A stretch of DNA of 64,000 nucleotides, taken from positions 1 through 64,000 of the IMG/VR virus record IMGVR_UViG_3300008448_000038. The stretch is one strand, 5' to 3'. Origin of the DNA: a virus. Numbering within the stretch: position 1 is the stretch's first letter; each line of letters starts with the position of its first letter. The position numbers and the translations under genes were made by a program. Under the pieces are notes generated by a model. That model did not search any database. It was not told where the DNA came from and saw only the letters and a list, made by a program, of their open reading frames with translations. Shown here piece by piece: positions 1,448 to 24,692 of the stretch.

Positions 1448-2462
1448 AAATTTTGTTGTATTGATTGTTTACTCTAACGAATTGTGCATTATTGTGCAAT
1501 TCATTTAGATCCCTTGCACCGACATAGGTGCAAGCAGAGCGAACCCCACCCATAATTTCCTTGACAGTATTTGCTACTTCACCGCGCTCTTCAACCACAA
1601 TCTTCTTTCCCTCAGCACAACGATACTCTGGCCGATGATTGTAGTGATTTGTCATTGCATGTTCCGATGCCATGCCATAGAAGGTCGGGACTGACTTGCC
1701 TTGTGCATAGTCATATTCCCACCCACCAGACTCGTCGTGGCCTGCTAGCATGCCGCCAAGCATGACCATCTTAGCACCAGCGGCGAAAGCCTTGGCTACA
1801 TCACCGGGATGTACGCACCCACCATCCGCGACTATACCCGAGAACCCCGGAAGATTCTTTGCATCTTCGGCGCAATGGTGAACCGCCGAAAACTGGGGAT
1901 ACCCTACTCCGGTCATCTTGCGTGTCGTACATGCGCTGCCGGGGCCGATTCCAACCTTTACAAAGTCTGCTCCTTCGATCCATAGTGCTTCTACTCCTTC
2001 TGGGGTGACAACATTTCCTGCAATAATATTTACACGATCTCCGTACTTACTACGAATATTTTTTACTAGTGTCTTGAAACTTTCGATGTAACCATTTGCC
2101 ACATCGATGCAGACAAACTTGAAAAAGTTTTCCTTTTCCATCACCTTGTAGAATGTTTGCTGTGATGCCGTATCCATGCCGATAGTCGGCGCAGAAAAAT
2201 ACTGAACATCCTTTGCAAGTGATTGTAGATCATTCGCGGTATAATGCTTATGCAAGCAAGTCAACCACATGTGCTTGGTGAGGGCTTCTGCCATGTTTAA
2301 CGTCCCAGTCGTAGCCATATTAGCTGCAACGACTGGAATACCAGTCCAAGGAATTCTACCCACAGTTCTGATCAGGGAAACATCAGATCTTGAGTTGACC
2401 TTTGATGGTTGCGGTACGATCAGAACATCCGAATAGTCTAATTGTGTTTCTTTAATTTGCAT
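1437..2462 (-). CDS. guaC: GMP reductase (IMPDH/GMPR family)
   Basis: The 341-residue product is a full-length TIM-barrel enzyme that would convert GMP to IMP with NADPH, releasing ammonia. The active-site loop GIGPGSACTTRKMTG covers residues 171-185, with the catalytic cysteine at about 178 followed by TTR. The phosphate-binding segment IVADGGC...PGDVAKA and the later MLGGMLAGHDESGG match GMP reductase rather than IMP dehydrogenase, as does the absence of a CBS-domain insert. The N-terminal DYSDVLIVPQPS is also typical. The start overlaps the zinc-motif gene upstream by 25 bases. In a phage this is an auxiliary metabolic gene, probably rebalancing guanine and adenine nucleotides during replication. 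Confidence 0.92.
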   Translation of the reverse strand: MQIKETQLDYSDVLIVPQPSKVNSRSDVSLIRTVGRIPWTGIPVVAANMATTGTLNMAEALTKHMWLTCLHKHYTANDLQSLAKDVQYFSAPTIGMDTASQQTFYKVMEKENFFKFVCIDVANGYIESFKTLVKNIRSKYGDRVNIIAGNVVTPEGVEALWIEGADFVKVGIGPGSACTTRKMTGVGYPQFSAVHHCAEDAKNLPGFSGIVADGGCVHPGDVAKAFAAGAKMVMLGGMLAGHDESGGWEYDYAQGKSVPTFYGMASEHAMTNHYNHRPEYRCAEGKKIVVEERGEVANTVKEIMGGVRSACTYVGARDLNELHNNAQFVRVNNQYNKIFGE

Positions 2463-2932
2463 AGTTGCTTGAGATTATACCACAGTGTCTGTGAAATTCC
2501 AAGCAGTGACTTCATGAAATTCTTGACTGAGAACTTTCCCCGTACTGGTTTCCAGAGTTTCTTTGGGCATGTGGCTCCAGCAACAGTTAACTTTACAGTC
2601 AACCTTGCTCTTGGGTTCATTCCACAGCCACAGAGTTTGCAATACCCTATCGGATCTTGTGGTGATTTGGCAAGACCGGGGCATTTAAGGCATTGTTCTT
2701 TTCTGGCCTCAAATACTTTCTTGGATACTTCTGTAGTGAATGCGCTATTTAATTCGAATAAAAAATATAATAATATTTTTTCCCATAGTTTTGTTTTTAC
2801 AATGGGAGATATTTTTTTAGCTGTATTATTTTGTGTTGGGAATTTAATAAGAGGAGATGTTTTGTTGTTGTTTTCAGGAACTTCAATTTTTTCTCCTTTG
2901 TGTATTTCTTTTTCTATTATTCTAAATTTCAT
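2438..2932 (-). CDS. Cysteine-motif (probable zinc-binding) protein
   Basis: I place the start at the internal ATG at 2932 (MKFRIIEKEIHKGE), which overlaps the stop of the giant upstream gene as ATGA; an ATG at 3004 is in frame but lies inside that gene. The product is 164 residues. The middle carries CLKCPGL (two Cys, spacing 2), then YCKLCGCGM and a final CP, a pattern that looks like one structural zinc site. The gene at 24693 has a very similar YCGGCGCG...CP arrangement. The rest is basic and lysine-rich. Coupling to the RCC1-propeller gene suggests a related job, such as its assembly or folding, but this is inference. Confidence 0.75.
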   Translation of the reverse strand: MKFRIIEKEIHKGEKIEVPENNNKTSPLIKFPTQNNTAKKISPIVKTKLWEKILLYFLFELNSAFTTEVSKKVFEARKEQCLKCPGLAKSPQDPIGYCKLCGCGMNPRARLTVKLTVAGATCPKKLWKPVRGKFSVKNFMKSLLGISQTLWYNLKQLCKLKKHN

Positions 2933-5900
2933 GTTTTTTTCTTCCAACAACCTATAAGCCCTAAAGAACGTGCCCAATTCGCAAATTGATTTTGGTCCCA
3001 CCATAAAGAATTTTGCTGTTCTTCTGGAGTATCAAATACAAATATATCTTCATCACTTACATTACAATCTGTTGCACAGTCAAAGCTTGAGACAAAATCA
3101 CCGGGTGGAACAGAATTTAAACATTCTTTACAACAATCACTTTCAGGATCTAACTCTAAACCTGATAATAGGTCAACACAGTTAGCCCCAAACATACCAT
3201 CGTCTTGACAAGCAACAAAATTTCCAGAACCCGGTTCTTCATATGTACTAGGAGCGACATAACAACTTCCACTATAAAGATAATCGAGTGTACCATAGCA
3301 AGTTACTCCCGTCAATCCCTGCTGTTCTACTGGAGTGCTAGGAAGTTCTGTGCCATTCCAAAGCGAACCTTTTAAATGGCAAGGAGCTTCTATATCTCTA
3401 AATTTCGCAACACCACCACCGAAAATATTTAATCCGCCACATAAAGAATTTGCTATATAACGACAAATCGTATAATGGGGTGTTTGAGGATTATTGATAA
3501 CTGCGGATTTGTAAGAGCCTAAAGTATATCCACCACCACCACCCATAGCATCATAATTTGGAGGTGAACAATTTCCTAGCTCATTATCAGAATTATAGCA
3601 GTCATTATTAAATTCTGATTCTTCGTATCCACTACTTGTATTACGATCTACAATTATTCCTTCGCACCCACAAAAACTTCCTTTATAAAAATTGATCATA
3701 TCATCATTTACAAATCCAATAGATCTCAATTGTTCCTCTGTAATATTAAACATAATTTTTGAACAATCAAATTGATCATCGGAACCAAACATGATTTTTC
3801 CTTGGCTAGTTACTGGACTACAAATCCCCCATGTTCGTCCAGTAGCAGGGGATAGTGTATTAATAAAATTAAGTTCAAAATCAGTATCAAATTCTAATAT
3901 ACTACGAGGATTTTGATCTGAATTTATGAACCCTCCGTTTGGAGTAATTAAAATATTTCCAGTTGCTGGATCCCTGTCCCATCTCTTAAAATCATAATCG
4001 GCACTTCGACTATACCCATAACCCAGCACTATTCCAGACACACCGCCAAACAATCCTTGATTCCAAGGACCAAAAGCATTAGGATCATTATTTGTAATTG
4101 GTCCATTAGCAGCCCATGCGGAAATACCTTGTTCTGGATATTTTGGACATCTACACCATCTTGCAGCTTTATAAGCACAGTCCTCTGCAAAATTATTGCC
4201 AAGTTTACATTCTGGACAATTTTCCATAAGTTCACAACATTCTTGGGTAAACATACCAACGAAATCTGAGTATGGTAAATTATAAGGATATTGTGGATTT
4301 CCTCCAGTGGCTCCCGGTATTTCCCAGTATCTATTTGGCGGCAATCCAAATATCCATGTAATACCTTCGTTAGAAAGCGAATTAAGAGAATTGTTTACAG
4401 TTCTGTTGAAGCTATCACAAAAATCATATCCAAAACAATCTGGTAAATTTTGTATCGTTACGCCCGGTATTGTAAATACTTGATCAGTTGGAAGAAAACT
4501 ATATGGGTTTTGATCTCTAAATGCTATTGGGCCATACCAATTGAAATCATATGATATTGAGTCAATTTCATTGTCATAAACAATACTATTTGCCCCATCA
4601 CTTTCAATCACTAATCCATTACAACCACTAACTGCTGCTCCTCCTTCCGATGGCATTCTATGTCTGGGTACACCGGAACATTTTGCATTAAATGCTGAAA
4701 ATTTTTCTGGATATGGGGATGGACATGGAAAATCTTGTCCTTGCGCGCAACAAGCTTGCGAATAACATATAGTGCAATTTTCAAAAGTTTTTGTTAATCT
4801 GACACCAAGATTTTTGGTTTTATATTCTTCAATTTCTTCAGCATTTCTTGAAATAACTCTATGAGGAATAACACTTGCATCCCATGTCATGCCTCTACTT
4901 TGAAATCTAACAAAAGATAATTCAGACTTTCCATATGCTTGTATAATAAAAAATCTGTTATCGGGAACATTAGGACATGGAGCATCTTGGATAGGTGAAG
5001 TGCCCTCAACTGGATAAGTATGAGCTGCAAATAAAATATCTGGTGTTTCGGAATATGTTGTTCTTCCACAATATGGGTCAATAGCAATTCCTGTTGTTGG
5101 ATCATCAAATGGTGGGCGCAAAACACAATCTCCGAATAAACAATTTGTGGTTGGATTCCAAGCAAAATCTAAAAATCCTTCATTTGGATCATTTGCAATG
5201 CATTTATTTATTTGAGAATGAGCTAAAACTCTCGCAAAGGAAGGAAATGCTCCATTACCCGGATCTTGTACATATCCATATTTTCTAAAAAACCAATTGT
5301 CTTGTGGAGGACTTCCCGGTCCAGCCAACCCCGGACCCCATGCCGAAAAGTCCCATTTCCCGGGCAGCATGAGCATATATGTGTAAGTAATTTGTGATAA
5401 TTTTGCTATAAGACTTAATTTTCTTAAATTACGCTGTTCTGCGGTTTCATTGGGATAACTTCCCTTTAAATCTATTTCATCAATAGGAGCAAAGACATTA
5501 GCATATGTCATTGCTTGTATTTGTCTCAATTCTTCTACTGGATCTCCGTTTTCATTCTGGAATAGGAATTCATAAGTTCCACTTAAAACATCATAAGGCA
5601 TGAAGACATTTACGTCTGTTGGAACTGGACCAGAGCCGGGGGGCAACTCAGATTGTCCATATTGGTTATCTCCCCATCCAATAATTGATCCATCGGACAA
5701 TAAAGCTATACTAAAATGTTCTCCCGCTGATATGTCAATAACTTGGCCAATACTTGACGGAACATTACACTGACCAAAATCATTATTACCCCAACAATAT
5801 ACTACACCAGTGTTGTCTAACGCAATAGTATGATATCCACCAGATGAAATTTTAACTATATCAACATTAGGATTATTTAATATTTCTGTAGGAACAACAC

Positions 5901-8106
5901 ATTGATTTGAATCATTTCTACCCCAACATATTGGTTTATCATTTAATCCAATTACAGAGGTGTGATAATGGCCAGCTGATATTTGTTTTGCTTTAGTATC
6001 AGGTGGTACTGTCGATTGTCCATATTGATTGTTTCCCCAGCAAATAACATTATTATTTGCTAAACGTACCGCAGTATGAAGTAATCCAGCAGATATCTCG
6101 TTTACTGTTCCAATATTAGGAGGAATAATACTTTGTCCATAGTTTGGGGCTACTCCAGTATTTTCAAGTCCCGCTCCCCAACATGTCAATCCACTTGACG
6201 TAAGTGCAACAGTATGTGCTCCACCGGCGGAAATTTCAAATATACTACTTGACGTTAACCCTATTGGTATAGACGATTGACCGTATTGATTACTACCCCA
6301 AGAAATAATATTGTTTGTATTAGTAAGTACTACTGTGTGAGCACCGCCAGCTGAAAATTTTATTATATTATCGTCAATAATTGGCACTGATGACTGCTGG
6401 GCATCATTAGATCCCCAGCATTTTAAAGTGCCGTTACTTCGTAGGCCTGCGCTATGAACATTTCCTGCTTCAATACTAACATATTGTACATCCCAATCTA
6501 TATCTCCGAAATATCCGGGTACACTTAAAGCGCGGTGTCTTTTTCTTATTGGGCCAAGTGGTGTTCCGAAAATTTTTGCTATTGTTTCAGTTTTTTGTGC
6601 ATCCGATAAATTTCTTAAATCTTCAACTGTACCTGTAAGAGGTATTGGTCTTGGAAGCATCATTGCAGCAAACAAATCATAATTTGCACCAGAAATTCCT
6701 AGTGCTTCTCTATAATAACTCTCTGCAATTATTAATTCTTCAACAGCTTCTTGTCTCCAATCTTTAGCTGTTATATTTACAAATTTTTGCCCTGCCATCA
6801 ATCCTAGAATAGGTCTTACCGCATTTGTATTATTCTGATCTGGATATGGTTGTTGACCATAAATTCCAAAATTTCCTGTTGGATTTGGAAAAATTGCAGT
6901 AAAGGCACGCATATTTGTAATTACATTACTTACATCTATAGCTCCATAATCTTTTGCGAATTCATGCAGATCAAACTCAAAGAAAGGAATTGCTGAACAG
7001 CCATAAATAAACCTTCTAGGTATTAAAAAGCTAAGAGGAAAATTTGCATCTTCATAAGCATTATTACATGCTCCTGCCTCGCCCAATCCCCAGTGATGTT
7101 CACATTGTATGAATCCTAAACACTGAAGTCTTAATGGTGTTGAAAAAGCACTTCCACTTATTTGTTTTCCAGAAGCCGATGTTTCTGGTTGATTTTGTTC
7201 AAAGTAATTTATATTATTAATGAATGGCCAATCTAAACCTCTGTTATAAGCAAAAATTTGAAAAGCCCATGGGTAATGTTCTCTTAAAATTCTTCTTCTA
7301 TAAGGAGAAATACCCATACGATTACAATATTCATTTTTTGCTATACTTGCGGGCGTACCGGCCACATATTTTTGCCTAAACGTAGAATCTGTATAGCAAC
7401 ATTCATCTTCACCAGCCGTGGAGCAAGGATATCCACTTTCCACAGAAGGACCTGAATTTGAATTTGCATTTATAACACCAGCAAAAACTGTTTCAGTTGG
7501 ATATCGAAAAATAAAAGGATCTTCTCCATATGCAACTCCTTTTATTGTGTTAAAAAAAGCTCTAAATCCTTTTTCAAGACCAGCACCACCATAGTATAGT
7601 TGATTTGTGCTAAATGAATCTTCGGAGTCTGCATCTGGTGGAGATGCATCCCTATTTGGAATTAACGTATGAGAGCATACATCTCCCTCAAGTGTACGAC
7701 CAAAATGCAAATTATATTCGGGACCACCTCCCGAATCACCTAAATCGGGATTTACTTGATTAAGTCTGGTAAATTCAGTGGATTCACATTCTGGAATATT
7801 AGTAGTATAATTACACATGTAAGATGGATGCCACCAAACCCAATATGACCCCATTTTTTTATATTGAAGTTTAAGTGTAGCCGGACTATTTTCTAGATTG
7901 TAATTAGTAGGGGTTGTACTTTTGCCATCCGTTTCAATCTTTACACCCTGATACAAAATAAGATCATCATTTAAATCTATTGGATTACCAGACCAATCAT
8001 TAATCCTAGATCCTGAAAAACAAGATTGGCAACAAACATCTTGGCATCCGGTTGGGGGTGGTGGTGATATAGTAGATCCGCAGCAGCAAGTAGATAAAAA
8101 GGTCAT
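2929..8106 (-). CDS. Giant cysteine-rich protein with seven RCC1 repeats, putative virion surface protein
   Basis: The product is 1725 residues. Residues about 540-825 hold seven consecutive RCC1-type repeats of roughly 36-45 residues, each built around I-S-A-G-x-x-H-T-x-x-L ... CWG-x-N-x-x-GQ-S-x-x-P. Seven is exactly the number of blades in the closed RCC1/BLIP-II propeller. The flanks are rich in Cys (including CCC and CC pairs), Trp, Tyr, Pro and Asn, as in extracellular or virion-exposed proteins. No signal peptide or membrane segment is evident. The gene starts in an ATGA overlap with a 55-residue coiled-coil gene and ends in an ATGA overlap with a zinc-motif gene. A tail fibre, adhesin or capsid-surface protein binding a host ligand is the likeliest role; I have no direct proof that it is in the virion. 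Confidence 0.85.
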   Translation of the reverse strand: MTFLSTCCCGSTISPPPPTGCQDVCCQSCFSGSRINDWSGNPIDLNDDLILYQGVKIETDGKSTTPTNYNLENSPATLKLQYKKMGSYWVWWHPSYMCNYTTNIPECESTEFTRLNQVNPDLGDSGGGPEYNLHFGRTLEGDVCSHTLIPNRDASPPDADSEDSFSTNQLYYGGAGLEKGFRAFFNTIKGVAYGEDPFIFRYPTETVFAGVINANSNSGPSVESGYPCSTAGEDECCYTDSTFRQKYVAGTPASIAKNEYCNRMGISPYRRRILREHYPWAFQIFAYNRGLDWPFINNINYFEQNQPETSASGKQISGSAFSTPLRLQCLGFIQCEHHWGLGEAGACNNAYEDANFPLSFLIPRRFIYGCSAIPFFEFDLHEFAKDYGAIDVSNVITNMRAFTAIFPNPTGNFGIYGQQPYPDQNNTNAVRPILGLMAGQKFVNITAKDWRQEAVEELIIAESYYREALGISGANYDLFAAMMLPRPIPLTGTVEDLRNLSDAQKTETIAKIFGTPLGPIRKRHRALSVPGYFGDIDWDVQYVSIEAGNVHSAGLRSNGTLKCWGSNDAQQSSVPIIDDNIIKFSAGGAHTVVLTNTNNIISWGSNQYGQSSIPIGLTSSSIFEISAGGAHTVALTSSGLTCWGAGLENTGVAPNYGQSIIPPNIGTVNEISAGLLHTAVRLANNNVICWGNNQYGQSTVPPDTKAKQISAGHYHTSVIGLNDKPICWGRNDSNQCVVPTEILNNPNVDIVKISSGGYHTIALDNTGVVYCWGNNDFGQCNVPSSIGQVIDISAGEHFSIALLSDGSIIGWGDNQYGQSELPPGSGPVPTDVNVFMPYDVLSGTYEFLFQNENGDPVEELRQIQAMTYANVFAPIDEIDLKGSYPNETAEQRNLRKLSLIAKLSQITYTYMLMLPGKWDFSAWGPGLAGPGSPPQDNWFFRKYGYVQDPGNGAFPSFARVLAHSQINKCIANDPNEGFLDFAWNPTTNCLFGDCVLRPPFDDPTTGIAIDPYCGRTTYSETPDILFAAHTYPVEGTSPIQDAPCPNVPDNRFFIIQAYGKSELSFVRFQSRGMTWDASVIPHRVISRNAEEIEEYKTKNLGVRLTKTFENCTICYSQACCAQGQDFPCPSPYPEKFSAFNAKCSGVPRHRMPSEGGAAVSGCNGLVIESDGANSIVYDNEIDSISYDFNWYGPIAFRDQNPYSFLPTDQVFTIPGVTIQNLPDCFGYDFCDSFNRTVNNSLNSLSNEGITWIFGLPPNRYWEIPGATGGNPQYPYNLPYSDFVGMFTQECCELMENCPECKLGNNFAEDCAYKAARWCRCPKYPEQGISAWAANGPITNNDPNAFGPWNQGLFGGVSGIVLGYGYSRSADYDFKRWDRDPATGNILITPNGGFINSDQNPRSILEFDTDFELNFINTLSPATGRTWGICSPVTSQGKIMFGSDDQFDCSKIMFNITEEQLRSIGFVNDDMINFYKGSFCGCEGIIVDRNTSSGYEESEFNNDCYNSDNELGNCSPPNYDAMGGGGGYTLGSYKSAVINNPQTPHYTICRYIANSLCGGLNIFGGGVAKFRDIEAPCHLKGSLWNGTELPSTPVEQQGLTGVTCYGTLDYLYSGSCYVAPSTYEEPGSGNFVACQDDGMFGANCVDLLSGLELDPESDCCKECLNSVPPGDFVSSFDCATDCNVSDEDIFVFDTPEEQQNSLWWDQNQFANWARSLGLIGCWKKKT
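5630..6490 (-). repeat. RCC1 propeller-coding region (seven repeats)
   Basis: Seven degenerate repeats of about 110-135 bases encode one propeller blade each. At protein level the cores read SIEAGNVHSAGL, KFSAGGAHTVVL, EISAGGAHTVAL, EISAGLLHTAVR, QISAGHYHTSVI, KISSGGYHTIAL and DISAGEHFSIAL, most followed by a (C/S/G)WG-x-N motif. They are diverged at DNA level, so this is an old protein repeat rather than a recent tandem duplication. Confidence 0.9.
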
Positions 8107-8270
8107 AGTTCAGCTTCAATTTTTTCAATCGTATCTCGTAGAGTCTTCATTTCATTGGCAAGCGCACGCCAATCTTTTGTTTCTAGGAGATAGTCTTCGT
8201 ATGTATCAATGCAAGAATGCGCTTTTTTGATTAATGTCAGAAGAGATTCTTTTAATTCTTGCTTGTCCAT
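8103..8270 (-). CDS. 55-residue coiled-coil protein
   Basis: A short frame starts with ATG at 8270 (MDKQELKESLL) and ends with EKIEAEL followed by TGA at 8103. The product is charged and almost entirely helical by composition, with heptad-like leucine and isoleucine spacing, so a small coiled coil is likely. The stop overlaps the start of the 1725-residue gene as ATGA, which implies translational coupling between the two. There is no Shine-Dalgarno; instead AATACATA lies four bases before the ATG (8275-8282), the same layout as other leaderless starts in this genome. A role as a chaperone or assembly partner of the giant protein is possible but only inferred. Confidence 0.75.
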   Translation of the reverse strand: MDKQELKESLLTLIKKAHSCIDTYEDYLLETKDWRALANEMKTLRDTIEKIEAEL

Positions 8271-8273
8271 ATA

Positions 8274-9056
8274 CTATGTATTTTCATTATCTTCCTTTGT
8301 CACTACTCTAATCACGTTTTCTTCTGCTTTTAAGTTTTCGTTTACCTTTATTTTATTTCGTCTGACCTTCAATCCGGCATTTGTTATCTCAATTGGATTT
8401 TCTTTCACCTCTGTTTTTAAAGGCGTTTGTTCTTGAATAAATCCAAATGGTGTTCCCTCTTCCTTGGCACGATTTATAAGGTCCACGATATTCAGTATTC
8501 TCTCGTTTTTCTTTTCCTCTTTGGCTGTCTTATCTACCTGAACATCAATACTCTCTATAGTCTTATAATAGAAAGATCTATAGAATCTAAGATCCATATC
8601 AAAGACAGTAATAAGACCTGACTTAGGGTATGGGCTTTCAATGATTGATGATTTTAGCCGCGAGTTTACTCTAGGAACTTTTAGTTTTCCGAAGAATCTA
8701 GCTTTACCAGTTCGACCCGCATTTCCCAGATTTGTATTTCGGGTGCATGTCATGATTCTGGTTTGCCCATTAGTTATTTTTCGGAATGTTACAACGCAAA
8801 TGTACTTTTCCAATGCTTCCATCAATTCACCCATGGATAATGAGTCTGATGGTGCATAGTCAGAATCTGTCTGGGAAATTTTAAAAATTTCTCCATCTAA
8901 TCGCTCCAACTTTATTTCTAAAGTGGATTGGTCTTCTTCGTCCTCTTCTTTTTCTTTGCTTTCTTTTTGATCGGCAAAGATTGCTGATAGATCTAGACCT
9001 TCAGTAATAGGTTTTACTTTATCAAACGGATCAGGTTGTTGGTTTGGCGGGGGCAT
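8274..9056 (-). CDS. WYL_2-like (SH3-barrel) phage protein
   Basis: I choose the ATG at 9056 (MPPPNQQPD) because a TGGAG Shine-Dalgarno lies six bases before it; an upstream ATG at 9074 is in frame but has none. The product is 260 residues. After an acidic low-complexity stretch (KEKEEDEEDQ) comes YICVVTFRKITNGQTRIMTC and later FDMDLRFYRSFYYKTI. These two pieces match the pattern of the small phage family called WYL_2 (Sm-like SH3 barrel), in which 'VTFxKxxGxxRxMxCT' and 'DxxxxxxRSFxxxxI' are the conserved halves. Here a longer linker separates them and a charged C-terminal extension follows. The function is unknown. Confidence 0.65.
   Translation of the reverse strand: MPPPNQQPDPFDKVKPITEGLDLSAIFADQKESKEKEEDEEDQSTLEIKLERLDGEIFKISQTDSDYAPSDSLSMGELMEALEKYICVVTFRKITNGQTRIMTCTRNTNLGNAGRTGKARFFGKLKVPRVNSRLKSSIIESPYPKSGLITVFDMDLRFYRSFYYKTIESIDVQVDKTAKEEKKNERILNIVDLINRAKEEGTPFGFIQEQTPLKTEVKENPIEITNAGLKVRRNKIKVNENLKAEENVIRVVTKEDNENT
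8275..8282 (-). promoter_or_regulatory. Candidate leaderless promoter octamer
   Basis: On the minus strand AATACATA is followed by GTAT and then the ATG at 8270. The 15 bases AATACATAGTATATG match the start region of sheath 2 (AATAAATAGTATATG) at all but one position. It lies inside the last codons of the upstream gene and would drive the coiled-coil gene and the giant RCC1 gene separately. Confidence 0.45.
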
Positions 9057-9975
9057 TAGAAGCTCCAGTAGCACCGATTGGGGTCACGGGTGCTCCTCCA
9101 AAGAATTGGTTATATTGATCTGCAAAATCAAATCCTTCTGGAACTCTATTTTTTAGATCAATAGGAGTATAGTAATTAGCTGGTGCTGCTGATTCTGCTG
9201 AACCAGTTTCTTTAAATGGCTGTGCTTGTTTAAATATTTTTTCAACCACAGAAAGATTTTTAATTGGATCGTTTGGTCCAGCAGCAATATTCTGTAGAGT
9301 TTTCATCTCAAAATCTTTTACTTCTGGAGTTACATCCCCTGTTTTATACTTACCGAAAGCTTCTTGGCCGCTAGCTACGTTTAATTCTGATGCAGCTTGC
9401 GAATAATCAGTAGTTCCAAAAATTAAATCGTATACTTTAGACCCAGCTAGAGCACCGCCGCCGAAACTTCCAGCAGTTTTTAAATAGCCTTTAATGTTTG
9501 CTGTAGGAATTTCAACACCGCTTTTAAGCTTTATTTTATCTGGCAAAAGTTTATCAACAACAGAGGATTTAGTAGACTGGAATAATAATTGACCAATTAT
9601 AGAACCAGTTACAGATTTAAAATTTTCTTCCTGCTTTTTTCTAAACAACGCAGGAGAATTGGCATCTGAAGCCTGTAATGATTTGTATATCTGATCAAAT
9701 TTATCAGCCTTAGTGAAATCCATTATATCGATAAAATCTACTGAAGATTTTCCAATAGTTAAATCATCTACTGTCGATAATTTTTCTTGAGATTTTTGAA
9801 CGCCTGTAAATTTTCCATTATATGGATCTATACCCATATCACGCAAAGCTTTTGCTCTTGCGTCTTCTGTTTCTGAACTATAAGGAATTGATTCTGGTTC
9901 TGGTTCTTGAGGAATCAGAAGTTTTCTATAATCAAAATCTTCTTGTTCAACAATATACTTATCAGAAAAGTTCAT
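9031..9975 (-). CDS. Hypothetical protein, possibly virion-associated
   Basis: This 314-residue protein begins MNFSDKYIVEQEDFD and is polar, with many Lys, Asp, Pro and Ala residues. A glycine-rich segment, SFGGGALAGSKVYDLIFG (about residues 172-189), is the only hydrophobic part and could be a membrane-active or buried helix. The C-terminus is low in complexity (ATGASNAPAKPTT). The gene begins in an ATGA overlap with the 121-residue gene upstream and overlaps the WYL_2-like gene downstream. The position among baseplate-side and structural genes and the Ala/Gly/Pro tail would fit a minor virion component, but I recognise no family. Confidence 0.7.
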   Translation of the reverse strand: MNFSDKYIVEQEDFDYRKLLIPQEPEPESIPYSSETEDARAKALRDMGIDPYNGKFTGVQKSQEKLSTVDDLTIGKSSVDFIDIMDFTKADKFDQIYKSLQASDANSPALFRKKQEENFKSVTGSIIGQLLFQSTKSSVVDKLLPDKIKLKSGVEIPTANIKGYLKTAGSFGGGALAGSKVYDLIFGTTDYSQAASELNVASGQEAFGKYKTGDVTPEVKDFEMKTLQNIAAGPNDPIKNLSVVEKIFKQAQPFKETGSAESAAPANYYTPIDLKNRVPEGFDFADQYNQFFGGAPVTPIGATGASNAPAKPTT

Positions 9976-10337
9976 TTTGCATAATCCATAAAAATGGTTT
10001 TATTGAACTGACTAATATTTGTTTCTTTGGCAGCATATCCTAAAATCATATGATGGGCTATAATTAATTTTTCAAGATCATTATCATTCTTGTTTAGAGT
10101 GATTGAAACCTTTTCGGGAGCCAACATTACTTCGAAATGCAAAAGCCCTCTTAAAGCAATAGCTAGATTTTTTTCGTTTAAGTGCTGTTGATTTGGATCG
10201 ACAGTTGAAATTTGTAAAGTATCGGTTTCTTCAAAATATGAAAGTAAAAATACAATATCCCGATATCCAGTTTCTACTTGAGTCCCGGATAATGTTTTAT
10301 AGTAAAAGCCTTTTGGATGTTTTTTGAAGTTTATCAT
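9972..10337 (-). CDS. Hypothetical 121-residue protein
   Basis: The product starts MINFKKHPKGFYYKT and reads as a compact alpha/beta protein with no low-complexity regions. The N-terminal half has several short strands (GYRDIVFLLSYF, TLQISTVD) and the C-terminal half is helical (EKLIIAHHMILGY). I do not recognise the family. It lies one base after the stop of the 409-residue structural gene and shares an ATGA overlap with the next gene, so it is translated as part of this operon. A small assembly or completion protein would fit the position; this is only inference. Confidence 0.7.
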   Translation of the reverse strand: MINFKKHPKGFYYKTLSGTQVETGYRDIVFLLSYFEETDTLQISTVDPNQQHLNEKNLAIALRGLLHFEVMLAPEKVSITLNKNDNDLEKLIIAHHMILGYAAKETNISQFNKTIFMDYAK

Positions 10338-14589: not shown

Positions 14590-14786
14590 GATAATTCGTT
14601 ATATCCTTTTGCTGATGCTGCTTTAAGTTTTTTCTCTGTCTGATATGCTTTGATCTGTGATATGAAAACGTCAAGTTCCCACGGAATCATTCTTTCAATC
14701 TCGGATAGCGGAAGATCATGCTTGTAGATAAGATTGAAAAATTTTACATACTTATCTACTAAATTTTCACTATCGAGAATTAAGAA
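14586..14786 (-). CDS. -1 frameshift extension of gp26 (gp51-like part)
   Basis: An open frame of 66 codons follows the gp26 slippery run in the -1 frame and has no start codon of its own until an internal Met about 33 residues in. The sequence (DSENLVDKYVKFFNLIYKH, then IERMIPWELDVFISQI) looks like a real helical protein: it has a conserved-looking P-W-E-x-D-V-F turn and a basic tail. A -1 shift at 14786-14792 would join it to gp26 as a protein of about 288 residues. It ends in an ATGA overlap with the 255-residue gene. The organisation matches the frameshifted tail-assembly chaperones of many tailed phages. In T4-like genomes the gene after gp26 is usually gp51, a hub-assembly factor; that equivalence is inferred. 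Confidence 0.7.
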   Translation of the reverse strand, partial: FLILDSENLVDKYVKFFNLIYKHDLPLSEIERMIPWELDVFISQIKAYQTEKKLKAASAKGYNELS

Positions 14787-15451
14787 AAAAAACGCAGATG
14801 TTCTCCAATAATTGCTGTTCTTGAAACTCCGTCAGAAGTTGTATAGCCAACTTCAAAATAAATTTCTGGATTGTTTTCTATAAAATCCTTTATTTTATTG
14901 TATTCATCGATTTTTAAATTCTTAAGAACTTCAACTCTTTCCTCAAGAGGAAGATTATCCATAATGAAATACTCATCTTGTTTTTCAAATGATTTAATAT
15001 GTAAAGCAACCTTTTCTTCGACTGTAAGCTCTGAAGAGATACAATCTTTGGCTTTAATACTTTCAAAGGTAACTACTTCTCCATTACCAATCATTAAAGT
15101 CTTGCCTTCAATGAGACTTATCTTATGATCTAAAACATTTAGACTAATCTTATGCTTTTCCTGAGTAGTTGGGCAAGTTATTTCCAGATCTAATTGTTCC
15201 CCCATTGACTTTGCTCTTAGAAATAAAAAGCATTGTTCCACTAAAGCGAGTTCAGCTTTAGGACTAAGTGGCATATCATAACAATCATTAATTAAATCCA
15301 TCACAGTTTTGATTACTAGATCATTTCTGGATTCTTCTTTTATGATCGCAAGATTTTTTTCATCTTTTACTAAGAACGGTCTAAAATATTGTTCTTTGCC
15401 ATTTAGTAATTTTGCTTTGTACTTTGGTAATCTTTTTTCAAAATATGACAT
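14780..15451 (-). CDS. 26: Baseplate hub protein gp26
   Basis: The 223-residue product begins MSYFEKRLPKYKAKLLNG and soon has FRPFLVKDEKNL, the 'YRPFLVKEEK' signature of gp26-type hub proteins, followed by the VIKTVMDLINDCY and LRAKSMGEQL segments also typical of the family. In T4, gp26 is a component needed for assembly of the baseplate hub. The length is close to T4 gp26 (208 residues). A GAGG Shine-Dalgarno precedes the ATG. The gene ends two bases after a T8 run that is a strong frameshift site, so two products are expected: the 223-residue form and a longer one with the downstream 66-residue extension. Confidence 0.8.
   Translation of the reverse strand: MSYFEKRLPKYKAKLLNGKEQYFRPFLVKDEKNLAIIKEESRNDLVIKTVMDLINDCYDMPLSPKAELALVEQCFLFLRAKSMGEQLDLEITCPTTQEKHKISLNVLDHKISLIEGKTLMIGNGEVVTFESIKAKDCISSELTVEEKVALHIKSFEKQDEYFIMDNLPLEERVEVLKNLKIDEYNKIKDFIENNPEIYFEVGYTTSDGVSRTAIIGEHLRFFS
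14786..14792 (-). promoter_or_regulatory. Slippery heptamer for -1 frameshifting
   Basis: In the gp26 reading frame the minus strand reads CGT TTT TTT TCT TAA, which contains the canonical heptamer T-TTT-TTT one codon before the stop. The whole T-run is eight bases (14785-14792). A -1 slip opens the downstream 66-codon frame. I saw no obvious stimulatory pseudoknot. Confidence 0.7.
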
Positions 15452-15458
15452 ATATTCC

Positions 15459-16031
15459 TCAATTATTTTTAAATGTATAAGTTCTAAAATTAAATTCTAC
15501 CGTTGCAAACATAACAGCATTTTTTTCTGTTTCTCCGAATTGTAGTGGGAAAATGCCGATTGGATAAGCCTCTGAAAATATAAAAGTTGATGATATTTTA
15601 TCTTGTAAGTTTAGAGTGGCTACTATAACCTGACCCAAAATAGATGTATAATCATTTACATAGGTATATCGATTACCCGCAAATCCAGTACCGCTTCCAT
15701 TTAGCTTAGATCCATCATTGACGATATCTTCGACCCAGTCATTAATGGCTTTGTAATTAGTCCACTTAGCATCAATGGCCATAGTCATCAACAATGAACT
15801 TGTTTTATCATAGTCAAAGTTGATTGGAACATTTCTACCAATGTTTGGTCCAGTAGTAAAATCACCAATAACACCTACTGATTTGTTTGGGAATTGAACA
15901 GAAAATATCGGAATGGAATTGGCGACTTCTTGGCCGTTTCTTGTAATGCTTACTTCAAAGCGATTGCTTCTCTGAAGTCCATAAGTTTCTACCTTATTTT
16001 TTATGTAATTAATTGAGCTGTTAATTTGCAT
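15459..16031 (-). CDS. Tail-tube-like protein, candidate tube initiator (gp54-like)
   Basis: The 190-residue protein has the layout of the gp19/gp54 tube superfamily: an N-terminal helix, 'GLQRSNRFEVSITRNG', then a strand ending 'IPIFSVQFPNKSVGV', a 'NVPINFDYDKTSSLLMTM' strand-turn, a helix with 'AINDWVEDIVND', and a C-terminal strand 'FATVEFNFRTYTF'. The Asp/Trp helix matches the place where tube proteins have 'AFxxWSNxI'. It lies between gp26 and gp4 and begins 11 bases inside the end of gp4. Because it is separate from the main tube genes and sits with hub genes, I suggest it starts the tube on the baseplate like gp54; a second tube-like tail protein is the alternative. Confidence 0.55.
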   Translation of the reverse strand: MQINSSINYIKNKVETYGLQRSNRFEVSITRNGQEVANSIPIFSVQFPNKSVGVIGDFTTGPNIGRNVPINFDYDKTSSLLMTMAIDAKWTNYKAINDWVEDIVNDGSKLNGSGTGFAGNRYTYVNDYTSILGQVIVATLNLQDKISSTFIFSEAYPIGIFPLQFGETEKNAVMFATVEFNFRTYTFKNN

Positions 16032-16458
16032 TGAATAGCGTCTTTTCTGTTAAAATTTTGAACTTCCAATTATTTTTTTCACATAAAACCTTAGTAGCAT
16101 TCCATTTGGCTTCGTTAACTAAATATTGAATCTTTGCTTCCATATAAGTTTTTGTAGCCTTTTTTTTCTTTTCGGGACTTTTTGTTTGTTTGACTGGCTT
16201 GACTTCTATTATAAAGACTTGTTCTTTACCATTTTCTTCTGTTAGAATTATGAAGTCTGGATAATAAGTATGTACTTTTTTGTCAATTGGAGAAAGATAT
16301 GGAATTTTTATTTTTTCATATCCCCACTTCTTGACGGTTGCAGTCTCGTCTAGATATTTACAAAACTTTCTTTCCCACAAGGATTTCGTATAAACATGCG
16401 TAGTTCCACCCATGTATTTATGGGGATTGGAAAGCAAAATTTTTGTTTTATACGGCAT
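16021..16458 (-). CDS. 4: Head completion nuclease-like protein gp4
   Basis: The 145-residue product (MPYKTKILLSNPHKY) matches T4 gp4 (150 residues): 'YxGxTTHVYTKSLWERKFCKYLD', then 'IKIPYLSPIDKKVHTYYPDF', and 'VFIIEVKP'. The Asp in YYPDF and the Glu/Lys in IEVKP form a PD-(D/E)xK type nuclease core. gp4 acts with gp2 in completing DNA-filled heads before tail joining. The start is set at 16458, not the upstream in-frame ATG at 16566, because the longer version would cross the divergent gp48 gene and because TATAGATA lies exactly four bases before this ATG, as at other leaderless starts. Confidence 0.85.
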   Translation of the reverse strand: MPYKTKILLSNPHKYMGGTTHVYTKSLWERKFCKYLDETATVKKWGYEKIKIPYLSPIDKKVHTYYPDFIILTEENGKEQVFIIEVKPVKQTKSPEKKKKATKTYMEAKIQYLVNEAKWNATKVLCEKNNWKFKILTEKTLFNAN

Positions 16459-16462
16459 ACAA

Positions 16463-16470
16463 TATCTATA
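16463..16470 (-). promoter_or_regulatory. Leaderless promoter octamer of gp4
   Basis: The minus strand reads TATAGATA, then TTGT, then the gp4 ATG. The octamer resembles the T4 late promoter TATAAATA, and a start of transcription seven bases after its sixth base would fall on the A of the ATG. There is no Shine-Dalgarno. It overlaps the plus-strand octamer of gp48. Confidence 0.55.
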
Positions 16471-16474
16471 CATA
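16467..16474 (+). promoter_or_regulatory. Leaderless promoter octamer of gp48
   Basis: TATACATA is followed by AAGC and the gp48 ATG at 16479. Layout and spacing are the same as at 47138 and 47689. It shares four bases with the divergent gp4 octamer, so the two promoters occupy the same 12 base pairs. Confidence 0.55.
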
Positions 16475-16478
16475 AAGC

Positions 16479-17240
16479 ATGGGAGTTTATAGATATCCAT
16501 TAGCATATGCAGCCGAAAATCCATTCTGGATTTACTTTTCTGCTGCCGATTACTCAGTCCGAGCACAGAATAGAACTAGGGCTGGAGTGGCTTCTAGAGC
16601 TGTCGAAACAGTTATATTGCCATTGCCTATGAACTATGATCTAGAAACAAAGCATACATTCAATGAAGAACTTAGCTTTGTTGGTCCCCACCTTAGCGTT
16701 GCTGGTATGGCAAATGCGGGTGGTCCATTGGCTCTGACTGAGCGTATAGCCTCTTCTGTCTTTGGTTTTGTGGAGCCATTAGTTGCCACGGAAACGTACA
16801 GAAGATTTTCAAATATTACTGAACTGTCGTTATTATCAGAAGCTAGACGGCAATTTAGATTTCAATATCTATTTGTTCCAAAGAATGCTCAGGAAGCCGA
16901 TGTTGTGTGGTCCATTTGCGATTTATTTAATACCATGTCTTATCCAGTTACTGGTGGAGTTCCAGAAAAGGCATATCCACCACCTCTATGGAGAATAGCA
17001 GGCAATAATTATAGAGTTACCTCTCAATGGCTACAAGAACCTTTAGTATGTGTATTGGGCGCGGTTGCAGTAAGCCCTATTCCACAGCAGGATGCTTATG
17101 TTCCTCGTTATAGAATAGACGGAAGTCCAGTAGCCACTAGACTGTCATTGACCTTTATGGAATTCGAACCCGGTACAAGAGTTCCCGGTGCTCTTGGTGG
17201 TATCAGAAGCAAGTCTGAAATTGCAGCAGGATTAGGCTAA
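16479..17240 (+). CDS. 48: Baseplate tail-tube cap protein gp48
   Basis: The 253-residue product caps the baseplate hub where the tail tube begins. The region 'RFQYLFVPKNAQEADVVWSICDLF' followed by 'MSYPV' and 'PPPLWRI' corresponds to the gp48 pattern of 'Y-x-F-x-x-R-x-x-x-E-x-x-x-V-x-x-I-x-x-x-F-R' and 'PP-x-W'. It is shorter than T4 gp48 (364), as in many T4-like phages outside enterobacteria. The C-terminus (SLTFMEFEPGTR) is the expected final strand. It opens the plus-strand baseplate operon and is divergent from gp4. There is no Shine-Dalgarno; the start follows a TATACATA octamer by four bases. Confidence 0.7.
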   Translation: MGVYRYPLAYAAENPFWIYFSAADYSVRAQNRTRAGVASRAVETVILPLPMNYDLETKHTFNEELSFVGPHLSVAGMANAGGPLALTERIASSVFGFVEPLVATETYRRFSNITELSLLSEARRQFRFQYLFVPKNAQEADVVWSICDLFNTMSYPVTGGVPEKAYPPPLWRIAGNNYRVTSQWLQEPLVCVLGAVAVSPIPQQDAYVPRYRIDGSPVATRLSLTFMEFEPGTRVPGALGGIRSKSEIAAGLG

Positions 17241-17942: not shown

Positions 17943-20438
17943 ATGCTTCCAAAATATATTAATATTAATGAAATTAGTTTTTATCATGTTTCTACGGGAG
18001 CTTTTGAGGCTTTGCTATTAGATACTCCTATAGAACCTAACCCAACATTTACTTTAGTTGGGGATGTAGCTACTTCGATGTTTGAAAGATTAGAATTGTC
18101 TTCTGGCATTGACCACAAATTTGCTAATGGTATTTTAGTACTTAAAGATCGTGGTGATATTATTGGAAAATTAAATCCATCTGGTAAAGATATTATAAAA
18201 ATTTCTATAGCACCTGATCCTCTTACGACTACTGAAGGTGAATCTGAAGGTTTTGAGACATATTATGTTGTTTCAGAAACTGAATATTCTAATGCTGCAA
18301 CTGATCGTAAATATTCAAAACTTATAACATTTAAACTATTATCAATAAATTTTTATAAAAATTTAAAAGCTATTAATACAGACACAATAAACGCAGATTT
18401 ATCTGTTTTAAAATATGGTACTATAGACTATAGTAATAAAATTTTTGATAAAATTTGTGAAGATGTTAAATTTATATTTCAACCCTCAGAGTTTGATACT
18501 ACTACTCAATATTATTTAAAAAATAAAAATTTAATATTTCCAAATAATAGAATCACAGATGATTCTCCCTTTGCCCATTTAGAATATATGAGTAAATATG
18601 CAATGGGAAATAACCTTTTTCCTTCGTTTTATGTTTATGAAGATGTAAATACATTTTTAAATTTTGTTAATATTTTACCAACAGAACCTATTGAACACCC
18701 GACAACGTATATTGTTGGTAATATAAACACATTTCCCGGTCGTGAAGTACCGTTTGAACTAGTATCAATAAAGAATTTTTCATTTTCTCGGTTAATATCA
18801 GAAGGTGCCTTAAGTTCTTATTATGAATGTGTTTATCCAGATTTTTCAAATTACTATTTCGATTATTTGGGAAATAAATCTTTTATTAGAAGAAATATAG
18901 AATTTGATATTACTGAGTTAAATACTGACTTTAATAAATTATCAGAAGATTACGATAGAGGCATTTCATATACATTTCCCGATACTCCTTTAGAATTTAC
19001 AACATTTACATGTAATCAAACAGATCCAGAAACTGGTGAATGTCTAAATGGATTAACGACATCTTTTTCTATACAGCAATCTTATCCTGCGTATATTCCG
19101 ATGAAAAGATTTGTTGATGATAAACCTTACGGCTACTATGATTCTACTTATTTAAATACAAATTATGATCCTTCGTTCAATAATTTCTTAAATATTGATT
19201 CCACCAAAACTACTGATAAACTATATCAAACAATGTTTGATATTTTCCCGTTTACTGACGATGACTTAACAGAAAACAATTCCCCGGGGATTACGAATAG
19301 TATAGGGATGGTCCGAAAAATAATTGAAATTTTAAATTTAAATGAAAGTGCAAAAAAAATTTATAGAAAAAAAATAGAACTAAAAGAAAAGTTTAATGTT
19401 TTTAAATATGTTTTATGTTGTTTGTTGGGTGATGATGAAGATGTAAATACTATTGATGCCGTTGTTAAATATCATAGTGTTTTAACCAATTCGACAGATA
19501 CTAAGCATCCAGTTTATCTTTATACATTCAAACAGATTGAGTATATACCTTTAGATTTTAATATTTTCTTTAATTCAATAGATACAAATTTAAGTGGATT
19601 TACTTTAATTCAAGGATCTAGCACTGCTCTAAGGGGAGTTACTATGAGCGGAATCACGTTAGATTTATCAAAATATGATTCATTTTATTGGCCAACAGGA
19701 ATTGTAACTACGCAATTTAACATAAATCTTGGTATGGCAGGACTTGCTGCTGGCTTAACAAGATCAAATATACATTTCTTAGTTGCTGGATTGAAGGATG
19801 GAGTAACTGGCTATTGTTTTAATACAAATGAAACTATGAATTTTCATGTTAATGTTCCAGTTGACAACCCCGGAAGTGCTATTGATCCAAATTTTACATA
19901 TTTTTCGAATGGTCTTACTTTAGGCGCAACTGGATTTTTTTATGGTGGATCTGGGTATGATTTATCATTGAAACAGCTTATTTTACGTCAAATTGGTTCT
20001 GGAGGAATTGTAACTGATACATTTGCGCTGAATGATTATAGAATCATGCCTATTGGCTGTATTAAACAAAATTGGTCATTAGATAATGCTAATGAATTTT
20101 TGGCATCACAATCTCAGCTTACTACAACAAAATGTAATATAAGATCAAGAGAACACATTACGAAAATATTTAGAAAAGATTTAAAAAATCTTAAAGGAAT
20201 TTCAGGACTTACATATACCTGTGCTGGCGTTACAGCAATTGTAGATGGGAGAACAAGTAATTTTATAATATGTCCAAACACAAATTATTACACCTTTGAT
20301 GTTCAAAATTCAATAGATGGATTCTGTGGTATTGAATGTGAGCTAAGTGATAATAAAAATCCTATAGTAGGGTTTACTGCTTCGCCACAATCAGATCCAT
20401 TTAAGTTTATAAGACCGTATCCGATTGGATATACCTAA
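17943..20438 (+). CDS. Large baseplate protein, possible hub component
   Basis: This 831-residue protein begins MLPKYININEISFYHVS. The N-terminal 220 residues contain several strand-rich segments (PTFTLVGDVATSMFERLEL, DIIKISIAPDPL) with a mix of Ile, Thr and Asp that resembles hub domains of the gp27/GpD type. After that it is Asn-, Tyr- and Phe-rich with few charged residues. The C-terminal third is made of Gly- and Thr-rich beta segments (SGFTLIQGSS, GLTLGATGFFYGGSG). No lysozyme motif is visible. It lies one base after the gp53-like gene and one base before a second hub-like gene, which suggests the two work together. The family is not recognised with certainty. Confidence 0.5.
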   Translation: MLPKYININEISFYHVSTGAFEALLLDTPIEPNPTFTLVGDVATSMFERLELSSGIDHKFANGILVLKDRGDIIGKLNPSGKDIIKISIAPDPLTTTEGESEGFETYYVVSETEYSNAATDRKYSKLITFKLLSINFYKNLKAINTDTINADLSVLKYGTIDYSNKIFDKICEDVKFIFQPSEFDTTTQYYLKNKNLIFPNNRITDDSPFAHLEYMSKYAMGNNLFPSFYVYEDVNTFLNFVNILPTEPIEHPTTYIVGNINTFPGREVPFELVSIKNFSFSRLISEGALSSYYECVYPDFSNYYFDYLGNKSFIRRNIEFDITELNTDFNKLSEDYDRGISYTFPDTPLEFTTFTCNQTDPETGECLNGLTTSFSIQQSYPAYIPMKRFVDDKPYGYYDSTYLNTNYDPSFNNFLNIDSTKTTDKLYQTMFDIFPFTDDDLTENNSPGITNSIGMVRKIIEILNLNESAKKIYRKKIELKEKFNVFKYVLCCLLGDDEDVNTIDAVVKYHSVLTNSTDTKHPVYLYTFKQIEYIPLDFNIFFNSIDTNLSGFTLIQGSSTALRGVTMSGITLDLSKYDSFYWPTGIVTTQFNINLGMAGLAAGLTRSNIHFLVAGLKDGVTGYCFNTNETMNFHVNVPVDNPGSAIDPNFTYFSNGLTLGATGFFYGGSGYDLSLKQLILRQIGSGGIVTDTFALNDYRIMPIGCIKQNWSLDNANEFLASQSQLTTTKCNIRSREHITKIFRKDLKNLKGISGLTYTCAGVTAIVDGRTSNFIICPNTNYYTFDVQNSIDGFCGIECELSDNKNPIVGFTASPQSDPFKFIRPYPIGYT

Positions 20439-20439
20439 A

Positions 20440-21207
20440 ATGAAGCAATTTAAAAGAATACTAACACATTTTTTACACGATGTCCACGAACATAGTGAGC
20501 GATTTTCTCAAATTGAGCAGTATATTTGTGCAAATCCAGATGCAGTTGATAATCAACCAACTGATATACAAGATTGTATTAAAAAATTTCCAAGACTCAA
20601 CGATTATTATCCGACAATGGAATCGTTCGTAGGTCCATCTGGTGGATCGGGATCAGCTACAATAAATATTGTTGCGGGAATAGAACCAAAAGATGAAGAA
20701 TTGCAATCTTTGCTAACTGCTTCTTCTGAGTGTGCTGGAATTTCTGCAATTTTAGGGACACAATATTTGGGATGTGATTGGTCAAGTCCTCAATCCCCTA
20801 TGTCATGTGATTGTCCCTATGTCACGCCAGCTTTTTTAAATTACCTATCTTATAAAAGATTGTCTGCTTCGTATTATAATACACATTTAAAGGCTCCTTT
20901 GTATAGAAATGCACTTGAATCTTTACTTAATGCGAGAAGAATTAAATTAAGAGTAAGAGGATATTTAAATTTCGATGTTGGTTTAGTTATTAACATAGAA
21001 GATAGAAGACCGCTGACGAAAGAAAATGAAGCTATAACTTTTTCTGGTTTCAGTGGTAAGTGGCTTGTTTTAAATCTAACACATGTTTTTAATAGGGATA
21101 GAACGTATGAAACAGAATTAGAATGTGCTTCTTATGATTTACTCATTGGAAATTTAGATCTAAGAAATCCATCTGATTCCTCATCACTAGGAATAATAAA
21201 TAGCTAA
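20440..21207 (+). CDS. Baseplate hub-like protein
   Basis: I place the start at 20440 (MKQFKRILTHF), right after the previous stop; an in-frame ATG 15 bases earlier lies inside that gene. The 255-residue product has an N-terminal helix, a Ser/Gly-rich linker and a cysteine-containing loop (GCDWSS...MSCDCPYV). The C-terminal domain (RIKLRVRGYLNFDVGLVINI, then GKWLVLNLTHVFN and TYETELECASY) is the terminal domain seen in phage hub proteins of the gp27/GpD type: 'G-K-W/Y-L-V-x-x-I/L-x-H-x-F...Y-x-T-x-L'. Together with the 831-residue gene it may form a split hub. Confidence 0.6.
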   Translation: MKQFKRILTHFLHDVHEHSERFSQIEQYICANPDAVDNQPTDIQDCIKKFPRLNDYYPTMESFVGPSGGSGSATINIVAGIEPKDEELQSLLTASSECAGISAILGTQYLGCDWSSPQSPMSCDCPYVTPAFLNYLSYKRLSASYYNTHLKAPLYRNALESLLNARRIKLRVRGYLNFDVGLVINIEDRRPLTKENEAITFSGFSGKWLVLNLTHVFNRDRTYETELECASYDLLIGNLDLRNPSDSSSLGIINS

Positions 21208-23270: not shown

Positions 23271-23950
23271 TATTATTTTTCAATCCAGAAACTCAAGGTT
23301 TAACCGTATCATTCGATGCGAGTTATTACATTGCTGAATTGGAAAATTATATTGCTACGACATTTAAAAGCACTACTGCCCCCACAAATAAAATTTTCGT
23401 TGAAGAATACTTTCCTCAATGGATACGAGAACAACACAATAAAAATCCAGTAAGATTTGTAAGCTTCTTACAAAATTATTATGACTGGCTATTTACTGTC
23501 GTTTCTGGTGGAGGATTTGGGGCAGATTATGAACTTGAAAAACTATTGGGTCTGCGCGAATGCCCGTTTAGTTCAGTCGATGAATTGATTTATCTGTACG
23601 CACATGATTTTCATGGAATATCATATACCTCCACACAAGTAGAAAACTTCAGACCCTTTATAGAAAACATTCAGAAAAAATATCTTGCAGTAAAGGGAAC
23701 TGATTCTTCATATGAGTATTTTATTAAACAAATTTATGGATTCACTGCTGGAGTTACGGCCAATTATTCTAATACTACTTTTGTACTGAATTCTACAAAT
23801 ATTGGACCCACAAATAAGCTTCAGGATAAAACTTCTGAAAATACATATACTGTCAAAATCGATGTCAGCTCGACCGCTGCCACTGCTGCTGACAAGAAGA
23901 CTATAGAAGAATCATTCAATATTCTAGGATACAAGACATTGGTAATCTAA
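23267..23950 (+). CDS. Baseplate-associated structural protein
   Basis: The 227-residue product has 'YFPQWIREQHNKNPVRFVSFLQNYYDWLF' (about residues 46-74), a form of the 'LPxFIRxxxPxFVEFLxxYYxFL' signature found in tail or baseplate proteins of T4-like phages of aquatic bacteria. Later 'KKYLAVKGTDSSYEYFIKQIYG' matches the second signature, 'Y-x-x-K-G-T-x-x-S-x-x-x-x-x-R-x-x-x-G'. In those phages the gene follows gp6 and takes the place of gp7/gp8, so it probably links wedge to fibres. It starts in an ATGA overlap with gp6. No enzymatic motif is present. Confidence 0.7.
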   Translation: MILFFNPETQGLTVSFDASYYIAELENYIATTFKSTTAPTNKIFVEEYFPQWIREQHNKNPVRFVSFLQNYYDWLFTVVSGGGFGADYELEKLLGLRECPFSSVDELIYLYAHDFHGISYTSTQVENFRPFIENIQKKYLAVKGTDSSYEYFIKQIYGFTAGVTANYSNTTFVLNSTNIGPTNKLQDKTSENTYTVKIDVSSTAATAADKKTIEESFNILGYKTLVI

Positions 23951-23951
23951 C

Positions 23952-24680: not shown

Positions 24681-24692
24681 TGGAGGTGAATT

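Follow-up and report, generated by a model that had tools for sequence, protein, structure and literature searches.

Why should a phage carry an RCC1-type propeller in the middle of a giant cysteine-rich protein, and what might the propeller do there? The question is raised by the stretch of 64,000 nucleotides analysed here (the window), which is positions 1 to 64,000 of the IMG/VR virus record IMGVR_UViG_3300008448_000038. A first-pass annotation, made from the sequence alone, had taken the DNA to be that of a phage and had noticed seven RCC1-type repeats in a Cys-rich protein of 1725 residues. The phage origin is borne out by a T4-like set of genes (portal, head protease, scaffold, major head protein, terminases, gp32, baseplate and tail), the portal being closest to those of Synechococcus myoviruses (~50%). 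The protein is also as described, being encoded by an open reading frame on the minus strand (2929..8106) with 65 cysteines.

Seven RCC1 repeats in a cysteine-rich protein

The protein can be divided into three parts, all encoded on the minus strand. The N-terminal backbone, residues 1-540 (6487..8106), aligns with 52-58% identity to relatives that have no propeller. It is followed by an inserted propeller of the RCC1/BLIP-II type at residues ~541-831 (5614..6486), a site that is empty in the relatives, and then by a C-terminal Cys-rich backbone, residues 832-1725 (2929..5613), which is 40-44% identical to the relatives and has 40 cysteines within residues 833-1725.

Repeat alignment and profile together identify seven unbroken RCC1 repeats of 37-46 residues each, covering residues 546-829 (window ~5620-6471, minus strand). 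In order from the N-terminus, these are residues 546-584 (6355..6471), 585-625 (6232..6354), 626-671 (6094..6231; the longest, with a longer loop), 672-709 (5980..6093), 710-753 (5848..5979), 754-792 (5731..5847) and 793-829 (5620..5730), the last being delimited by eye. The repeats had previously been placed at 5630-6490; they lie mostly inside that interval, and extend about 10 bases beyond its low end. A search with a profile of these repeats recovers all seven, which confirms the count only, as the profile was trained on the same repeats; the numbering in its output begins one codon upstream of the ATG.

The first-pass annotation had proposed a search against RCC1 profiles, and three Pfam families score above their cut-offs on the 1725-residue protein: RCC1_2 with 177.4 bits (cut-off 22, 2e-53), WD40_RLD with 159.1 bits (cut-off 150, residues 540-833) and RCC1 with 45.6 bits (cut-off 21.7). 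Repeats above the curated cut-off are what defines the RCC1/BLIP-II superfamily, and the protein is a member of it. A control scan of 14 well-known genomes with PF13540 gave 0 matches, which, with the Pfam scores, excludes a chance origin of the repeats. Among proteins of solved structure, the best sequence match is BLIP-II, both for the whole protein (4.2e-32) and for the propeller domain (3.7e-34).

Predicted structure of the propeller

It had been argued from the number of repeats that the domain is a whole seven-blade propeller and not a fragment. AlphaFold2 was used to predict a structure for residues 531-840, with an alignment of 27 relatives from the fetched loci as input. The model has a mean pLDDT of 92.5 and a pTM of 0.89, and its 21 strands fall into a 7 x 3 pattern. 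Foldseek finds BLIP-II as its top match (3.2e-22). In VIA-align the model superposes on UVR8 (Z 36.0, 282 residues, 2.0 Å, over model residues 7-299 of 310), on BLIP-II (Z 32.6, 248 residues, 1.7 Å) and on the human RCC1-Ran complex 1i2m (Z 27.1, 265 residues, 2.9 Å). This last match, on the evidence of the model, shows a shared fold only; to our knowledge, bacteria do not have Ran. Closed seven-blade propellers, UVR8 foremost, thus span nearly the whole model, from which we infer that the ring closes with seven blades, and the prediction thus bears out that the domain is complete. The 7 x 3 pattern of strands in the model places the blades in the BLIP-II type, for which the available text of PMC6121496 names three strands per blade as a feature.

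BLIP-II (from Streptomyces; 1jtd, 3qi0) shares with the propeller its seven three-stranded blades and its repeats of ~40 residues, at a sequence identity of about 27-30%. It is a stand-alone inhibitor of β-lactamase, whereas here the domain is embedded in a phage protein of 1725 residues. One might suppose that the propeller similarly inhibits a host protein, inside the cell or at its envelope, or else a defence protein: propellers of the RCC1 type are protein binders, and BLIP-II is both the best match by sequence and among the closest folds. We nevertheless regard this as improbable, because the domain is part of a very large Cys-rich protein rather than a small soluble one, and because proteins of so low an identity may bind through different interfaces.

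The propeller is absent from related proteins

Searches of IMG/VR with the stretches flanking the propeller found six loci. Two of these, L003 and L004, match the window without a difference over 14-15 kb and therefore represent no independent lineage. The other four (L005-L008) have no propeller and represent three distinct sequences, L005 and L006 being the same (1404 residues) and L007 and L008 having 1400 and 1385 residues; all were aligned end to end with the window protein. Residues ~541-831 are absent from each of them, and at the empty site 'RALSVNGLFDELEGNEL' (in the L005 form) runs directly into 'VNVFMPFD'. There is no RCC1_2 match in any of the four propeller-less records, which are fragments. 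The first-pass annotation had rightly seen a domain within a larger protein; what had escaped it is the inserted nature of the domain, the same site being empty in the relatives. As far as our literature search shows, a propeller that is present or absent as an insertion in a Cys-rich protein family is new.

Of the four distinct sequences just one bears the propeller, and the simplest history would be that it was gained once, on the branch leading to the window, though in a comparison of these four alone a loss in the relatives may also account for it. A recent import was considered on the basis of base composition and was not upheld, there being no difference in GC or GC3 between the insert (0.380 and 0.193) and the backbone (0.362-0.367 and 0.174-0.193). 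A scan of 84,980 species genomes for a donor found 391 relatives of the propeller; among the best 80 of these, which come from many phyla, there is no close donor, the highest identity being 41% (a Planctomycetia MAG).

The cysteine-rich backbone

The backbone outside the propeller matches no family in Pfam, PHROG or NCBIfam, and has no matches in the 50,697 phage records of INPHARED. In IMG/VR, even an alignment query finds it at 6 loci only. A structure prediction for residues 1-960 from the four sequences gives a pLDDT below 50 for 549 of the 960 residues. Comparison using hhalign with VrlC and gp7, large baseplate proteins of Kyanoviridae, taken from cyanophage S-SM2 as single sequences, gives probabilities of 0.2% and 0.4%, and VrlC has 4 cysteines in 2519 residues.

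Across the gap-free columns of the four distinct sequences, 51 of the 57 columns with a cysteine in the window protein are invariant, as against 490 of 1266 other columns. The cysteines are thus kept while the protein diverges fast, which suggests a disulfide-bonded extracellular protein of the particle. There are also four CxxC motifs, and given these the cysteines may serve to bind metal rather than to form disulfides. No obvious signal peptide was seen by eye at the start of the protein.

Block exchange of the gene

Comparison of the window with the L007 phage at the DNA level shows that the identity collapses over the Cys-rich gene (block 2780..8060, minus strand): it is 96.5% in the flanks and 61.4% in the gene minus the propeller. 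For L007 against L046, the corresponding values are 84.5% and 83.8%. The block against L007 was scanned coarsely in 300-column steps, and its ends in steps of 40 bases. The identity is 92-100% down to ~8060, falls to 39-85% inside the block in the two scanned end zones, and is 95-100% again below ~2740. The breakpoints are thus at ~8060, near residue 16, and at ~2780, just beyond the 3' end. In a tree of the flanks the window groups with L007, and in a tree of the gene L007 groups with L046, each with a bootstrap of 100; in AU tests of each partition the other topologies are rejected (p <= 0.00024). This conflict implies that two genomes as nearly alike as those of the window and L007 have different alleles of the gene. 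Genes that lose identity abruptly between near-identical phages are termed hypervariable, and by these alignments the Cys-rich gene is one. Scans with three neighbouring genes found 10, 5 and 6 loci, and among them no further allele that reaches the Cys-rich gene.

According to the available parts of PMC3909814 and PMC7029224, where the function of a hypervariable gene is known in related aquatic phages, it is in most cases recognition. In the metaviromic islands of marine phages and the recognition cluster of pelagimyophages, as far as these are described in the text available, identity likewise collapses over single genes with recognition domains; they differ in being mostly fibres with lectin-type domains, and none of those reported there is a Cys-rich giant bearing a propeller.

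Could the block instead be a neutral recombination hotspot, with no selection on host contact, or a mis-assembly? Only a single propeller-bearing sequence is available, and the sequences are metagenome assemblies. However, two more data sets (L003 and L004) gave the identical 14-15 kb on assembly, propeller-less alleles occur in three further distinct phages, and the breakpoints lie close to the ends of the gene. These points speak against it, and we give this explanation little credence.

Other exchanged loci

Besides the two halves of the Cys-rich protein, 47 other genes of the window were compared at the protein level. The L007 record ends early and has matches for 27 of the 47; of these, 22 are 89-100% identical, the match extending over 39% of the length for gene 33125-37507 and over 85% for gene 1437-2462. 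The remaining five fall below 80%: 2438-3004 (76.6%), which contains the 3' breakpoint, 9031-9975 (38.1%), 9972-10337 (57.0%), 17943-20438 (59.3%) and 20425-21207 (59.2%). The L046 phage has a match for each of the 47, and the identity is lower than 70% in just two, 17943-20438 (58.8%) and 20425-21207 (57.6%). These last two genes are 92.5% and 89.4% identical between L007 and L046, so that the window stands apart from both at 17943-21207 just as it does in the Cys-rich gene.

The two genes are on the plus strand and sit shortly before the baseplate wedge gene 21585-23270. The first (17943..20438) encodes a hub-type protein of 831 residues in the baseplate region and the second (20425..21207) a tail protein of 260 residues (phrog_350). 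For the former, the search for a solved relative gave one match, at chance level (E 0.99), and for the latter none was found. The first gene of the pair is partial in the L008 phage, where it is 73% identical to L007 and L046 and 58% to the window. The common allele of the pair is also that of L131, a locus that stops short of the Cys-rich gene.

The propeller and the allele of the pair go together in all four distinct phages that have both loci. This is a pattern, not a test, and may be one historical accident, because only one propeller-bearing sequence is known. A second exchanged island at 9210-10230 (genes 9031-9975 and 9972-10337) has a different allele pattern: here the window is 76.4% identical to L046, and L007 is 56.0 and 58.5% identical to the two of them. 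It counts against a shared pattern, since at this island the window sides with L046. We would suggest, rather tentatively, that 17943-21207 and 2929-8106 could form one matched recognition set that is traded together, with the propeller as a plug-in head on a loop.

Genome context

The Cys-rich gene is preceded by an open reading frame of 55 residues (8103..8270, minus strand), whose stop overlaps its ATG (ATGA), and on the basis of this overlap the two are likely to be translationally coupled. On the same strand as the Cys-rich gene, the genes at 14780-16566 match families of baseplate hub, tail tube and head closure proteins, and gp32 lies between, on the plus strand. The late-promoter motifs TATAAATA and CTAAATA have 2 and 9 matches, both fewer than in shuffled sequences, and generic scans for promoters and terminators found nothing above shuffles. 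No photosystem reaction-centre match was found in any of the six records, which are fragments.

Conventional tail fibres are encoded in the same record beyond the window (70122-71849 and 71863-74754), and a second adhesin is therefore not required. The first fibre is 89% conserved. The second (L150 7863-10754) is 80% identical to G003/G004 over its first 101 residues and 57% over one inner stretch, with no other match to them, which would be the usual look of a fibre swap.

Several other features of the window are worth recording. There are three matches to tail sheath (33125-37507, which has ~1200 extra N-terminal residues, 37518-38651 and 38648-40060) and three to tail tube families (15459-16031, 40088-40624 and 40621-41196); the stretch of S-SM2 that was examined has one of each, and our search found no literature on several tail sheaths. 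The sheath stabiliser 27435-31490 has 1351 residues, with the family match limited to the first 225. Between the gp6-like and gp13-like genes, 23267-25274 contains only three small open reading frames, at the place where S-SM2 has gp7, gp8 and VrlC (~7200 residues). Finally, 1437-2462 is a metabolic gene of the IMP dehydrogenase/GMP reductase type (PF00478, 1.4e-73).

RCC1-type propellers in other phages

The available parts of the reports on phiKZ gp131, GAP32 and W70 make it clear that RCC1-type propellers on phage particles are already known. In phiKZ, gp131C is described as a seven-bladed propeller at the periphery of the baseplate, with an unproven role, in the portion of PMC4901313 available. 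It has the same number of blades, on a phage structural protein, and there is an RCC1-type sequence trace between it and our propeller (2.8e-4). VIA-align (4gbf) gives Z 18.2 over 275 residues with an rmsd of 5.4 Å, and it is therefore not a close relative. It is also a terminal domain, unlike the propeller here, which is internal (residues 541-831 of 1725) with backbone on both sides; the arrangement is thus not that of gp131. Proteins with RCC1/BLIP-II domains are reported for three further phages, in the text available: mass spectrometry identified them in virions of GAP32 (PMC5259590) and W70 (PMC11370258), and phAPEC6 has eleven RCC1-like proteins (PMC7247149). The family of the W70 proteins, phrog_4219, has a weak match to the 1725-residue protein. 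The W70 proteins differ in being separate proteins of 40-43 kDa, and the available text of the three reports mentions no Cys-rich scaffold.

A virion protein need not use its propeller to bind a receptor, and the propeller could be a structural or stabilising decoration. To judge from the same partial sources, RCC1-type propellers are present in virions without a known ligand, and the propeller is dispensable, since three sister alleles do without it. That very dispensability, together with its presence only on the exchanged allele, fits recognition better than a load-bearing role, and a single insertion of 290 residues is no feature of the scaffold. On balance we consider decoration unlikely, though it is the most serious of the competing explanations.

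Among named phages, 12 records have a match to the propeller, at 24-33% identity. In four of the six contexts examined, the RCC1 gene is beside tail fibre, adhesion or baseplate genes: right behind the gene for the distal long tail fibre in S-SRM01, with two more RCC1 genes downstream; close to a tail fibre and to a large protein of T4-like type in BUCT-ZZ01; between baseplate genes and a pectate lyase in SP-15; and after a cell adhesion gene in Jenst. In Marinobacter PS6 and Salicola SCTP-2 the annotations of the neighbours are uninformative. S-SRM01 and BUCT-ZZ01 are freshwater Synechococcus phages (Kyanoviridae) that share RCC1-type domains with the window, theirs being in the tail-fibre region, but these are in other open reading frames, without a Cys-rich backbone and at 24-25% identity. 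Three other viral contigs (L032 125-12817, L033 2-10960 and L034 3-10280) encode giant proteins of 3400-4200 residues with RCC1-type repeats throughout; as these run from end to end, the giants would each seem to consist of several propellers in a row.

The contexts also bear on the proposal, made by the authors of the phAPEC6 study (PMC7247149), of a role in DNA binding or packaging, akin to chromosome condensation. From the part of that paper available, the proposal leans on the eukaryotic function. The neighbouring tail and adhesion modules in those four cases point elsewhere, as do the apparent signal sequences, seen by eye, at the start of some bacterial relatives, and the terminase genes of our phages are conserved where the Cys-rich gene is exchanged. 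Such a role for the 1725-residue protein seems to us very improbable indeed.

Proposed function

Taking these observations together, we think that the 1725-residue protein is probably a host-contact protein of the tail or baseplate of the virion, exchanged as a block, with an autonomous propeller as its binding head. It would be made late, sit at the tail tip or baseplate and touch the host surface. The backbone is swapped between related phages as one block and, with its cysteines conserved, would be a conserved fold built around them. The propeller would be inserted in a permissive loop between 'RALSV.G.F' and 'VNVFMP', standing off from the backbone as an autonomous head on short linkers that are predicted with low confidence, and its face would bind a ligand on the host surface, either protein or glycan. 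The virion location, the surface exposure and the binding are all deduced, and binding to a host ligand is proposed because of the block exchange, the co-varying genes of the baseplate region and the neighbours of the relatives. Several observations count against this reading: neither late-promoter motif is enriched, no signal peptide is obvious, the cysteines may bind metal, the backbone has no family match in the libraries searched, and the record already encodes conventional tail fibres. The suggestion in the first-pass annotation, that a propeller exposed on the virion could bind a host receptor, is therefore plausible; nothing in the analysis supports its other suggestion, that the target could be a host enzyme, as for BLIP-II.

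The backbone points to a Cys-rich, exchangeable family of virion type in T4-like phages, which is unnamed in the libraries searched and, so far as we could find in the literature, new. If the propeller and the baseplate-region pair are indeed a matched set, they would make up a modular adhesion system, separate from the tail fibres of the same phage. Phages that are nearly identical, some having and some lacking a defined autonomous head on one and the same scaffold, amount to a natural experiment, by which the unsettled role of RCC1-type propellers in phage virions becomes directly testable.
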